43,974 bases of DNA, taken from contig JAGCSA010000017.1 of assembly GCA_017964405.1 (NCBI GenBank), forward strand, positions 1 through 43,974, read 5' to 3'. The DNA is from Bacilli bacterium. GTDB lineage: Bacteria; Bacillota_I; Bacilli_A; RF39; UBA660. The translations under genes and the position numbers were made by a program. Shown here piece by piece: positions 2,306 to 36,045 of the stretch; position 1 is the first letter of the stretch; every line of letters starts with the position of its first letter. The notes beneath the pieces are model-generated. The model saw only the letters and a program-made list of their open reading frames with translations, was not told where the DNA came from and did no database searches.

Positions 2306-2342
2306 TAATTATTCAATCATATGTTTGGGAAATAAATCTATA

Positions 2343-2358
2343 TGTTTCACGTGAAAAA
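2343..2358. promoter_or_regulatory. parS-like ParB site 1 (imperfect)
   Basis: TGTTTCACGTGAAAAA matches the Firmicutes parS consensus TGTTNCACGTGAAACA except at one position near the right end. The core CACGTG palindrome is intact. It is one of three copies within 153 bp. Confidence 0.85.
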
Positions 2359-2363
2359 TGGCC

Positions 2364-2389
2364 AAAATTATTTCCCAGGAAATAATTTT
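2364..2389. promoter_or_regulatory. Noc-binding-site-like palindrome 1
   Basis: A 12-bp perfect inverted repeat with a 2-nt centre (CA at 2376-2377). Its middle, ATTTCCCAGGAAAT (2370-2383), differs by one base from the B. subtilis Noc site ATTTCCCGGGAAAT. It lies between two parS-like sites, in AT-rich DNA with no gene. Noc is the ParB paralogue used in nucleoid occlusion; that this genome has a Noc is inferred only. Confidence 0.65.
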
Positions 2390-2415
2390 AGGGTATTTTT
2401 AGCTAAAAAATGATA

Positions 2416-2431
2416 TGTTTCACGTGTAACA
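2416..2431. promoter_or_regulatory. parS-like ParB site 2 (imperfect)
   Basis: TGTTTCACGTGTAACA is parS with a single change in the right arm and an intact CACGTG core. Confidence 0.85.
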
Positions 2432-2445
2432 ATTATTATCAAAAT

Positions 2446-2459
2446 ATTTTCTGGGAAAT
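2446..2459. promoter_or_regulatory. Noc-binding-site-like sequence 2
   Basis: ATTTTCTGGGAAAT has the right arm GGGAAAT of the Noc site and a left arm with one arm mismatch. It sits between parS-like sites 2 and 3. A further half-match, TTTGGGAAAT, is at 2324-2333 before parS site 1. Confidence 0.5.
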
Positions 2460-2479
2460 AAAATGATAAAAAAATAATT

Positions 2480-2495
2480 TGTTTCACGTGAAACA
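2480..2495. promoter_or_regulatory. parS site 3 (perfect 16-bp palindrome)
   Basis: TGTTTCACGTGAAACA is an exact parS consensus and a perfect palindrome, the known binding site of ParB/Spo0J. Position next to gyrA fits an origin-proximal centromere-like site. Confidence 0.92.
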
Positions 2496-2660: not shown

Positions 2661-3110
2661 ATGAATCAGAAGTATTTTGATATTGCTTTTCAAATGGCAG
2701 AAAAAGCATTTGAAATAGATGAAGTACCGATTGGGGCTGTGATTGTTTTAAATGATCAAGTGATTGCAAAAGCATATAATCATAAAGAAAAAGATGGTTG
2801 TTGTACTTCTCATGCTGAGATATTAGCAATCCAAAAAGCATCTAAAAAGCTTGACAATTGGCGTTTAGAAGATTGTGATATTTATGTCACATTGGATCCT
2901 TGTCCTATGTGTGCAAGTGCAATCAAACAAGCAAGAATTGGTCATGTTTTTTCTGCTTTATCTAATTCTGATTCTGATAATACTGATATTATTGTAAAGA
3001 TCTTTCAAAAAGATCGTGTGAATCCAGAAGTTTTCTTTCAGTCTAATTTGGCTGTGGATAAATCTAAAAAAATATTAAATTCTTTTTTTGAAAAGCAAAG
3101 AAATAGTTAA
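2661..3110 (+). CDS. tadA: tRNA-specific adenosine deaminase
   Basis: TadA deaminates A34 to inosine in the tRNA-Arg(ACG) wobble position. The cytidine-deaminase fold zinc motifs are complete: H51-A-E53, with E53 the proton shuttle, and P-C81-P-M-C84. Length (149 aa) is normal for the family. The start follows a good GGAGGAG Shine-Dalgarno at 2652-2658. It lies 23 nt after the SRP RNA and may receive some read-through. Its stop codon is inside a terminator hairpin that separates it from dnaX. Confidence 0.96.
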   Translation: MNQKYFDIAFQMAEKAFEIDEVPIGAVIVLNDQVIAKAYNHKEKDGCCTSHAEILAIQKASKKLDNWRLEDCDIYVTLDPCPMCASAIKQARIGHVFSALSNSDSDNTDIIVKIFQKDRVNPEVFFQSNLAVDKSKKILNSFFEKQRNS

Positions 3111-3126
3111 TATCTTTGCTTTTTTG
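3091..3126 (+). terminator. tadA terminator
   Basis: AAAAGCAAAGA (3091-3101) pairs with TCTTTGCTTTT (3113-3123), followed by T's. The hairpin overlaps the tadA stop. A -10-like TATAAT at 3130-3135 follows at once and probably starts the dnaX operon. Confidence 0.85.
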
Positions 3127-3157
3127 TTATATAATAAAGATGTTGGGAGGTTTTGTT

Positions 3158-4870
3158 ATGTATCATGCATTATACCGTAAATATCGTCCTATGGATTTTG
3201 ATTCTGTAGTGGGTCAAGATGCTATTATTAAGACGTTAAAAAATTCTATTAAAAATAATAATTTTACGCATGCTTATTTGTTTTTTGGACCACGTGGTAC
3301 TGGAAAAACTACGGTATCTAAAATCTTTGCGAGAAATGTGAATTGTCTTTCTCCTGTGGATGGTGTTGCCTGTCAAAAATGCAGTGCTTGTGAAGTGTCT
3401 TTTTCTCATGATTGTGTTGATATACTTGAGATTGATGCTGCTTCTAATAATGGAGTAAATGAGATTAGAGAGCTTAGAAATAATGTGAATTTAGTACCTA
3501 GCGAATTAAAATATAAGGTTTATATTATCGATGAGGTTCATATGCTTTCAGATGCGGCATTTAATGCATTGTTGAAAACATTAGAAGAACCACCTGAACA
3601 TGTTATCTTTATTCTAGCTACTACAGATCCTCAAAAAGTACCGGAAACTATTATCTCTAGATGTCAGTGTTTCTCTTTTAAAAGAATACCGGATTCCGTT
3701 ATTCGAGAACGGTTAGATATGGTTTGTAAGAAGGAAAAAATTAAAATTGAACCAGAAGTATTAGATCGTATTGCTATGCTTTCTGATGGTGGATTAAGAG
3801 ATGCCTTAGGAATGCTAGATAAGATGGTTTCTTATACGGATGATAAGATAACATTAGATGATTTTAATGATGTAAATGGGATTGTTTCTGATCAGGATTT
3901 AAATGCTTTTATGGAAGCTATTATGACAGGAAATATTAAGAAAGTATTATCGTTGATCGATTCTTTCCATCATAGTGGTAAAAATTTGATTCAAATTATG
4001 ATTCAATTTGTTAATTATACTAGAAATATGGTTGTGGATTATTATTTATCTAATAAAGAAATTTTTGTTCCTATTGAGTTATTACAAGAGTTTGTGAATC
4101 TTTTGAATGAAAAGATGAATGATATTAAAAAGAGTAGTAATACTAAGGTATACATTGAAATGTTCCTTTTGAAATTTATGAATGATTCTATTAAAAATGT
4201 GCAAAAAGAGCCTGTGGATAAAAAGATTATTATTGAAGAAAAACCGGTTGTTGTAGAGAAAAAAGAAGAAATTATGGAACCAAAAAAGGAAGAGAGAAAA
4301 GTAGAAAAAATAGATGAGAAAATTGATCCTATTCCTACTGAAGTTGAAGAAGAGATTCCTTATCAACCTGTTGATATGATTCGTTCTGTTCCTAATATCT
4401 TAAATTTAGATGAAGTTATGTCTATTCGTATTAATAATTCGTTTGCTACGGCTGATAAGAATCTATTAAAGGAAGAAATGAATAATTTTGAATTGTTAAA
4501 AGACTTTTCTTTTGATCAAAAAATAGGTTATTTAGTTAATTCTATTTTGGATTCTAAAATCCGTGTTGTTGGAAAGAATGATATGATTATTAGCTATGAT
4601 TCCGATGCGATTGTTGATCAGAATTTGGTGAATATTGTTTCTTTAAATGATGTTTATAATGAGATTACAAAATCAAATAAAAATATTGCGATTATTTCGG
4701 ATTCTCGTTGGGAAAACTTAAAGAATGAATATATTGAAAACTTAAAGAATCATGTTTCTTATGAATTGAAAAAGGAGCCTGATCTTGTATTGGAAGAAAT
4801 AAAGAATGATGATATAATATCTAATAGTGCGATATCTTTATTTGGAGAAGATATTGTGGAAATTGAGTAA
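3158..4870 (+). CDS. dnaX: DNA polymerase III subunits gamma/tau
   Basis: DnaX is the ATPase of the clamp loader. The protein starts MYHALYRKYRP, the family's usual N-terminus, at the ATG 8 nt after GGGAGG; an upstream in-frame TTG at 3116 lies inside the terminator and is not used. Walker A is GPRGTGKT from G44, followed by a four-Cys zinc module, the DEVHMLS Walker B region and the ISRCQ sensor motif. Residues about 350-410 are a Lys/Glu-rich linker, and a divergent tau-like C-terminus follows. At 570 aa it is a full-length tau. First gene of a long operon with ybaB, recR and holB. Confidence 0.97.
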   Translation: MYHALYRKYRPMDFDSVVGQDAIIKTLKNSIKNNNFTHAYLFFGPRGTGKTTVSKIFARNVNCLSPVDGVACQKCSACEVSFSHDCVDILEIDAASNNGVNEIRELRNNVNLVPSELKYKVYIIDEVHMLSDAAFNALLKTLEEPPEHVIFILATTDPQKVPETIISRCQCFSFKRIPDSVIRERLDMVCKKEKIKIEPEVLDRIAMLSDGGLRDALGMLDKMVSYTDDKITLDDFNDVNGIVSDQDLNAFMEAIMTGNIKKVLSLIDSFHHSGKNLIQIMIQFVNYTRNMVVDYYLSNKEIFVPIELLQEFVNLLNEKMNDIKKSSNTKVYIEMFLLKFMNDSIKNVQKEPVDKKIIIEEKPVVVEKKEEIMEPKKEERKVEKIDEKIDPIPTEVEEEIPYQPVDMIRSVPNILNLDEVMSIRINNSFATADKNLLKEEMNNFELLKDFSFDQKIGYLVNSILDSKIRVVGKNDMIISYDSDAIVDQNLVNIVSLNDVYNEITKSNKNIAIISDSRWENLKNEYIENLKNHVSYELKKEPDLVLEEIKNDDIISNSAISLFGEDIVEIE

Positions 4871-13595: not shown

Positions 13596-13635
13596 ATCTT
13601 TCTAATGATTGTGTTATATTATTGGCATATTTGAA

Positions 13636-13859
13636 ATGTTGTGATGAAGAGCGCTTAATTCAGACGTTTATTCGAGAGAGCTTTGATGGTGAAAATAAGC
13701 ATAAACAGAATTAAAGCAGTATGGCTTCTGAACTTCTATATCGATAGGTAGATATAGACGTAGATTGGCGTTAACGATTGAAGTGTGTAATAGAGATTAT
13801 TGCAAAATAAGGTGGTACCGCGGATATTCCGTCCTTATGTTTGTAATAATCTTTTTTTT
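13636..13859 (+). promoter_or_regulatory. T-box riboswitch, Met specifier, controlling metG
   Basis: The T-box sequence AAGGTGGTACCGCG is at 13808-13821. Stem I is supported by GCTTAATTC (13653-13661) pairing with GAATTAAAGC (13708-13717) and by the AGAGAG and GGTG apical elements. The 3' side of the specifier loop reads AGTATGG with the codon ATG at 13721-13723. Uncharged tRNA-Met would stabilise the antiterminator. The competing terminator is AGATTATT (13794-13801) pairing with AATAATCT (13845-13852), then eight T's. Confidence 0.93.
13794..13859 (+). terminator. T-box regulated terminator before metG
   Basis: AGATTATT / AATAATCT extended by CAAA and ATAAGG / CCTTAT, followed by a run of eight T's. 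The T-box sequence lies inside the hairpin, so antiterminator and terminator exclude each other. Confidence 0.88.
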
Positions 13860-15451: not shown

Positions 15452-15475
15452 AAAAAAGAAAGATAGGGTGATTTG

Positions 15476-16399
15476 ATGGTTAGCGGTGGGACTGTAAGTG
15501 GAGATGCTAGTTCTCTATCGAATGTTTTAGGAGAATACTTATCGGATATAGAGGGGTTATCCTCTACTTGGAAAGGGCCTTCTTATGATAATATTCAAAC
15601 GAAAGCATCTAATTTTGTTTCTGAATATAAAGGATTGATTGTTGGGCAGATGGAATCTTTTGCGAATGCTTGCAATCTTTATTTAGAGTATGTTACTTGT
15701 AAACAAAATTTAGAAATATCGAAAAGTAATTATAATCAAGCTGTTTCCAATCAAGATTCTGCAGCGATGAGTACATATAGTAATTCTATTTCTAACTATA
15801 CTTCTCGTTTGAATACGTTAAAATCTGAGATTCAGAGTGCTTTGGCATCTGCTTCTTCTGTTTCTTTGCAAGCTACTGCTATCAATGCGGATGTTACGGC
15901 AGAAGCTGAAAGTCCTTCTACTAGTGGAGGAGGAGAAAATCCTAATTATATTTATTCTGCAAAGTATCCTGGATATGTATTTCCATTTGAAAAAGGGGTG
16001 AATGCTCCTGTTACTTCTCATGTTGGACGTCGTACTGCTCCTACGGAAGGTGCTAGTACCAATCATCAAGGAACGGATATTGGGGCTGCTAATGGGACAG
16101 AGATTCATGCAATCTATTCTGGTAAAGTTGTTACTTCTGGTAGTTTTGGTGGTTATGGTAACTGTGTTCGGATTCAACAAGATGATGGAAATCTTACTTA
16201 TTATGGACACTGTTCTAAAACAACGGTTCAGGTTGGAGAGAGAGTGGAAGCAGGAGATGTTGTTGGAAATGTTGGTAGTACCGGTGTTTCAACGGGACCT
16301 CATCTCCACTTAGAAATTCGGGCTGCTGATTATGATAGTACGAAGAATCTGATAGATTCTGAAGATATATTTGAAGGTGTTTGGCCAGAGAAGGTATAA
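15476..16399 (+). CDS. WXG100/LXG-like N-terminal domain fused to M23 (LytM) endopeptidase
   Basis: The C-terminal half is an M23 peptidoglycan endopeptidase: zinc ligands H197-Q-G-T-D201 and H276-L-H278, with GNCVRIQQ and YYGHCS strands. The N-terminal 150 residues are helical, Ser-rich and contain W32-K-G34 in SSTWKGPSYDNI, like the turn of WXG100 proteins. A Gly/Ser-rich linker joins the halves. There is no signal peptide although the enzyme must act outside the cell. WXG domains are recognised by type VII secretion, so export by that route is the simplest inference. ATG 15476 follows AGGGTGA. Single-gene unit between terminators. Confidence 0.85.
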   Translation: MVSGGTVSGDASSLSNVLGEYLSDIEGLSSTWKGPSYDNIQTKASNFVSEYKGLIVGQMESFANACNLYLEYVTCKQNLEISKSNYNQAVSNQDSAAMSTYSNSISNYTSRLNTLKSEIQSALASASSVSLQATAINADVTAEAESPSTSGGGENPNYIYSAKYPGYVFPFEKGVNAPVTSHVGRRTAPTEGASTNHQGTDIGAANGTEIHAIYSGKVVTSGSFGGYGNCVRIQQDDGNLTYYGHCSKTTVQVGERVEAGDVVGNVGSTGVSTGPHLHLEIRAADYDSTKNLIDSEDIFEGVWPEKV

Positions 16400-35912: not shown

Positions 35913-35918
35913 AATTTT

Positions 35919-36045
35919 TGAAATTTGTAGGTGCCATAGACAGTAGGTATAAAAGTAAATCCTACCGAGGACTTTTTATGAAGTATTAAAGGAGTTCTTT
36001 GGCATGTTTGTTAAAGAACTTTTTTATGGCATCCCTAATATAGTG
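35919..36045 (+). promoter_or_regulatory. L10 leader (ribosomal protein L10 autoregulatory RNA)
   Basis: The leader has GGTGCCATAGACAGTAGGTA (35930-35949), GTAGG pairing with CCTAC (35961-35965), and CCGAGGA, all as in Firmicutes L10 leaders. GGTGCCATA can pair with TATGGCATC (36025-36033). An internal terminator, AGTTCTTT (35993-36000) with AAAGAACT (36013-36020) and six T's, would stop transcription when L10 binds. TTGGCAT in its loop could instead pair with GTGCCA. Confidence 0.85.

Follow-up and report, generated by a model that had tools for sequence, protein, structure and literature searches.

ParB and Noc are the textbook example of a duplicated DNA-binding clamp whose copies have diverged in specificity and function. 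The spacer downstream of gyrA in the window (the whole stretch of 43,974 nucleotides analysed here, contig JAGCSA010000017.1) raises the question of how two such clamps might share one short piece of DNA. A preliminary description had proposed either a composite centromere, at which the two clamps load side by side or compete, or one relaxed ParB-like protein that reads both motifs. The organisms of this clade, a large family of uncultured gut bacteria, are known here only as metagenome-assembled genomes (MAGs), and our reading is built from their sequences. The features of the region are as follows.

53–2278, + strand: gyrA, truncated N-terminally where the contig begins (open reading frame; adjoins the array in nearly all relatives)
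2277–2303, + strand: intrinsic terminator of gyrA, a 12-pair stem with a U tail
2319–2495, no strand: composite array of parS and Noc-type sites (NBS), from sequence and consensus matching
2327–2334, no strand: weak NBS half-site GGGAAATA, right half only, the left half having no match
2343–2358, no strand: parS 1, TGTTTCACGTGAAAAA, 1 mismatch to the 16-bp parS consensus
2369–2384, no strand: NBS 1, TATTTCCCAGGAAATA, 1 mismatch to the 16-bp NBS consensus
2416–2431, no strand: parS 2, TGTTTCACGTGTAACA, 1 mismatch to the parS consensus
2445–2460, no strand: NBS 2, TATTTTCTGGGAAATA, 2 mismatches to the NBS consensus
2480–2495, no strand: parS 3, TGTTTCACGTGAAACA, perfect (0 mismatches)
2558–2653, + strand: ffs, bacterial small SRP RNA, the downstream border of the array (Rfam RF00169, 61.8 bits)
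2661–3110, + strand: tadA, conserved neighbour (open reading frame and position in relatives)
3116–4870, + strand: dnaX, conserved neighbour (open reading frame and position in relatives)

The analysis confirmed a woven array in the spacer between gyrA and the SRP RNA gene, with the sites in the order (half NBS)-parS-NBS-parS-NBS-parS. The three parS-like sites had been placed correctly in the preliminary description. Of its three Noc-like sites, those starting at 2369 and 2445 stood when compared with the 16-bp NBS consensus used here (TATTTCCCGGGAAATA), while the third was reduced to the half-site at 2327–2334. The 26-bp palindrome claimed around the first Noc site was found at 2364–2389, enclosing NBS 1 and broken only at its central pair. 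Such sites are not expected by chance: parS with up to 2 mismatches occurred in 0 of 20,000 first-order Markov draws of the spacer (the real spacer has 3), and a single NBS with up to 2 mismatches in 5 of 20,000 (the real spacer has 2). Further copies had also been suggested as worth seeking across the genome. In the 1.28-Mb draft (58 contigs, 93.5% complete), no parS or NBS with up to 1 mismatch was found outside the array, and 2 of the 3 NBS with up to 2 mismatches (14-bp pattern) lie within it. With reversed patterns, the whole genome gave 0 NBS matches and 0 parS matches with up to 1 mismatch. Elsewhere in the window, a T-box leader lies ahead of a methionyl-tRNA synthetase-like gene (13632–13839), an N-terminal stretch that appears WXG-like by eye is followed by a peptidase M23 domain (15473–16399), and an L10 leader precedes rplJ (35916–36034).

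Conservation of the sites in relatives, which had been set as a test of the proposal, was examined in two ways. When same-genus relatives were chosen by the neighbouring tadA gene rather than by the motifs, both motifs were present in 32 of 33 loci; in the exception, tadA lies only 204 bases from the contig start. In these loci, 192 of 214 neighbouring site pairs alternated in type, compared to 120 ± 7 when the type labels were shuffled within arrays. A motif-only scan of the GTDB collection (84,980 species' genomes), in which an NBS core had to follow a parS core at 8–38 bp, returned at least 111 loci, with 490 of 668 neighbouring pairs alternating (343 ± 11 in shuffles). Among the matches listed, 110 of 111 were placed by tblastn at the gyrA/tadA/dnaX junction and came from uncultured Bacilli MAGs, with record labels such as Bacilli, Tenericutes, Erysipelotrichaceae, Candidatus Onthousia, Candidatus Scybalousia and similar names. 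Thus, the woven array is found at the same gene junction in more than 100 species. The sole exception listed is a Lactobacillus contig with what looks like an isolated weak pair. This lone parS/NBS-like pair (Lactobacillus sp. YT155, L153:4861–4900) is near none of the marker genes. A phage or plasmid origin of the array was also considered; the search, which covered viral contigs, gave no woven match.

The pattern is concentrated in the family of the window organism. Among 395 genomes sampled across the class, the strict pattern was present in 14 of 57 from this family and in 1 of 338 others. Genome-wide within the genus, 70 of 80 parS and 67 of 74 NBS (up to 1 mismatch) fell inside the fetched tadA loci, shares that are probably underestimates because several of these loci end at contig ends. 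The other families sampled carry 0, 1 or 2 NBS per genome. In some species, the parS-NBS unit is repeated up to about 10 times, and most relatives have perfect NBS copies. The placement of the array within the gyrA-tadA-dnaX region differs between genera, and outside the genus the arrays frequently combine abundant parS with a small number of NBS, some clusters containing runs of one type (e.g., four parS or three NBS in a row). Copies within one array arose by tandem duplication and are not independent of each other. In other genera of the family, a single perfect NBS is located close to noc (G025:C37:11956, G027:C22:15941 and G030:C6:15494); these sites are perhaps autoregulatory. DnaA boxes (TTATCCACA) abut parS in the arrays of some relatives (L018:1299–1324, L029, L078, L031, L135, L148 and L173); 14 arrays contain 28 boxes, of which 16 lie no more than 10 bp from a parS against about 13.5% expected by position, and the window's own array contains none.

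The preliminary description also called for a search of the genome for parB and noc, lack of parB being something that would have spoken against its proposal. The genome carries one complete ParB gene (contig C45, 1853–2770) following parA (1087–1881). The encoded protein has the LG(K/R)GL ParA-binding motif, as RRALGKGLEELF, and the specificity code R-M-S-G. A family search of this genome had suggested that Noc is absent. This was rejected, as relatives possess two paralogues separated by about 2.2 kb and contig C45 begins within noc: the 328 residues encoded at its start share 51% identity with the second paralogue of relative G008 from residue 194 onward. Only the C-terminal part of noc has therefore been assembled, with the N-terminal DNA-binding half in an assembly gap, and the specificity of the organism's own Noc is deduced from relatives, in which both genes are complete.

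According to Jalal et al., R173 and G201 read parS, while NBS are read by Q173 and R201 when position 179 or 184 carries a permissive lysine (PMC7383237). The 305-residue ParB has R173 and G201 (S or A at position 201 in two relatives), and the second paralogue has Q173, K179 and R201 (Q-K-x-R) in every family member with a readable region. The second paralogue lacks the ParA-binding motif. A maximum-likelihood tree separates the ParB and Noc groups with 100/100 support, and the nearest solved structure to the second paralogue is a Noc (4.5e-61). Against TIGR04285, it scored 284 bits over 255 positions, below the cut-off of 315. In relative G008, the gene order is parB-parA-noc-rsmG-mnmG-mnmE-jag-yidC-rnpA, followed by dnaA-dnaN-recF-gyrB and then gyrA, the array and tadA (the gyrA/array side being taken also from L018). 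Thus, noc is close to the origin in relatives, and in G008 the origin is flanked by the clamp genes on one side of dnaA and by the array on the other; the window's own genome is not assembled across this region.

The spacing of the sites bears on how the two clamps might share the array. For this analysis, spacers were grouped by alignment similarity and one distance was taken per group, so that tandem copies counted once. The start-to-start distances between parS and NBS peak near 24–27, 35–37, 46–49, 58, 67–69 and 79 bp. In 178 independent spacer groups, a helical phase was evident (Rayleigh nR2 = 13.3 at 10.5 bp, p ~ 2e-6), at 4.3, or about half a turn, with a best-fitting period of 10.95 bp. 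Distances of 51–100 bp, beyond the selection imposed by the gap limit of the scan, have the same phase, and the phase is significant separately in same-genus-like loci and in other genera. The tadA-selected genus set, which overlaps the 178 groups but was not chosen by motif, gave nR2 = 10.7 (57 groups, p about 2e-5) with a phase of 5.26. Adjacent parS-parS distances showed no phase among 53 groups, a weak contrast given the limited power, and NBS-NBS distances lean toward whole turns (25 groups, p 0.03). As half-integral-turn spacing tends to set neighboring ParB and Noc sites on opposite sides of the DNA, simultaneous occupancy is easier to reconcile with these arrays than mutual exclusion. 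Of the two modes, these spacings favor the predicted side-by-side loading over competition.

Other explanations should be weighed against this one. The array might have resulted from an old tandem duplication that carried along both types of sites needed at the origin, with ParB and Noc acting separately and without interplay. Many arrays have clearly been built by tandem duplication, and in some genera the clusters contain many parS and few NBS, as this explanation would have it. However, alternation and half-turn phase are kept across spacers of unrelated sequence, and neither is expected under neutral duplication, so that we regard this explanation as unlikely. It is still less probable that binding of ParB and Noc at the woven sites is mutually exclusive, with the sites then acting as a switch between two states, one for segregation and one that blocks division. 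The closest sites are 4–6 bp apart, edge to edge, and two clamps on the same piece of DNA might obstruct one another, but the half-integral phase places neighbors on opposite faces and same-face spacings are few.

The palindromes could also be ordinary operators for transcription of ffs or tadA, as the array is just upstream of ffs and a weak promoter-like match is present at 2532–2560. This seems very improbable, however, since the motifs match parS and NBS, are repeated as units many times over in some species, and do not hold a fixed position from one genus to the next. The notion of one relaxed ParB-like protein for both motifs, offered as the alternative in the preliminary description, has in its favor that only one complete ParB was assembled in the window's genome. 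It fares worst of all, in our judgment, and is scarcely credible: contig C45 opens with a truncated second paralogue, both specificity codes occur in relatives, and hybrid sites are nearly absent (304 parS/parS and 265 NBS/NBS half-site pairs versus 5 mixed or hybrid pairs). The array sites keep to two separate codes, which disfavors a single relaxed reader.

The reading that we prefer is that the spacer represents an origin-proximal composite ParB/Noc centromere, to which we assign a probability of roughly 0.7. The Noc-code paralogue, present in every readable relative and truncated in the window's own genome, supports this reading, with binding of the two proteins being a prediction. The components resemble known systems. 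As in the B. subtilis ParABS (Spo0J/Soj/parS) system, the canonical 16-bp parS, an adjacent parA and an origin-proximal position are found, and ParB has the LG(K/R)GL motif and R173/G201; the difference is that a single intergenic array here concentrates the parS sites and interleaves them with those of the paralogue. The NBS consensus, the specificity residues, the position of noc near the origin and the lack of a ParA-binding motif are likewise shared with the Noc/NBS systems of B. subtilis and Staphylococcus aureus. However, B. subtilis has scattered NBS (PMC4331003) and 41 loci are bound by Noc in S. aureus (PMC5540599), while in the genus of the window NBS are essentially restricted to the centromere array. 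Both Spo0J and Noc help to prevent Z-ring assembly over the nucleoid in B. subtilis (PMC6852036), but they do so from separate sites, whereas here the DNA itself interweaves the two types. A search of the open-licence literature found no description of parS/NBS arrays that are interleaved or phased. The components are known and the woven arrangement appears to be new.

Noc itself is altered in this family. B. subtilis Noc binds to the membrane via an N-terminal amphipathic helix (PMC8429893). Noc of the window's family lacks this membrane-targeting helix: only 16–20 residues precede PxxxQPR, the first conserved motif, and in most members a stop codon lies close ahead of this stretch. Elsewhere in the class, families f6 (MGLFDFLG) and f11 keep a helix-like Noc start and some other families lack one. 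A further difference from B. subtilis is a long linker between the DNA-binding and C-terminal domains, carrying the short conserved motifs SNYGKVxIAPP, KFINYGE, ITPAEKIVK and DYFxxP, which look like putative partner-binding sites. Around these motifs, the linker is otherwise variable (e.g., L206:3878–5176). SMC and FtsZ are present in nearly all same-genus genomes. No MinC was detected in 39 relatives, with B. subtilis as a positive control, and MinC is missing in other families of the class too; its absence is a background feature with no special link to the array.

Taken together, the composite centromere may operate as follows: ParB, with the parS code, and Noc, with the NBS code, would each load as CTP clamps at their own sites in the array; nucleation complexes on opposite faces at neighboring parS and NBS could be occupied at once; and, as clamps encircling DNA should not pass each other, the alternating sites would yield a mixed train of ParB and Noc rather than two domains. 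ParB would connect this train with ParA and SMC, for segregation of the origin. Noc, with no membrane helix and with a long linker in which short motifs are conserved, probably recruits a further partner to the origin, and this partner may couple segregation to division-site choice or to initiation. A bolder proposal, to which we give an even chance, is that the array represents a new kind of centromere in bacteria. On this view, one phased, alternating array would co-assemble two paralogous CTP clamps, each with its own DNA code, into a single mixed partition complex, and Noc, elsewhere a division inhibitor tethered to the membrane and bound at scattered sites, would have become an adaptor at the origin.

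In this lineage, which has no detectable MinC, both DNA codes have been kept and their sites woven together with helical phasing. The arrays make it possible to test: how two clamps share one DNA track; and whether a single machine can provide both nucleoid occlusion and centromere function. They are also natural substrates for single-molecule studies of mixed ParB/Noc loading, and the clade as a whole makes it testable what replaces membrane anchoring in Noc.
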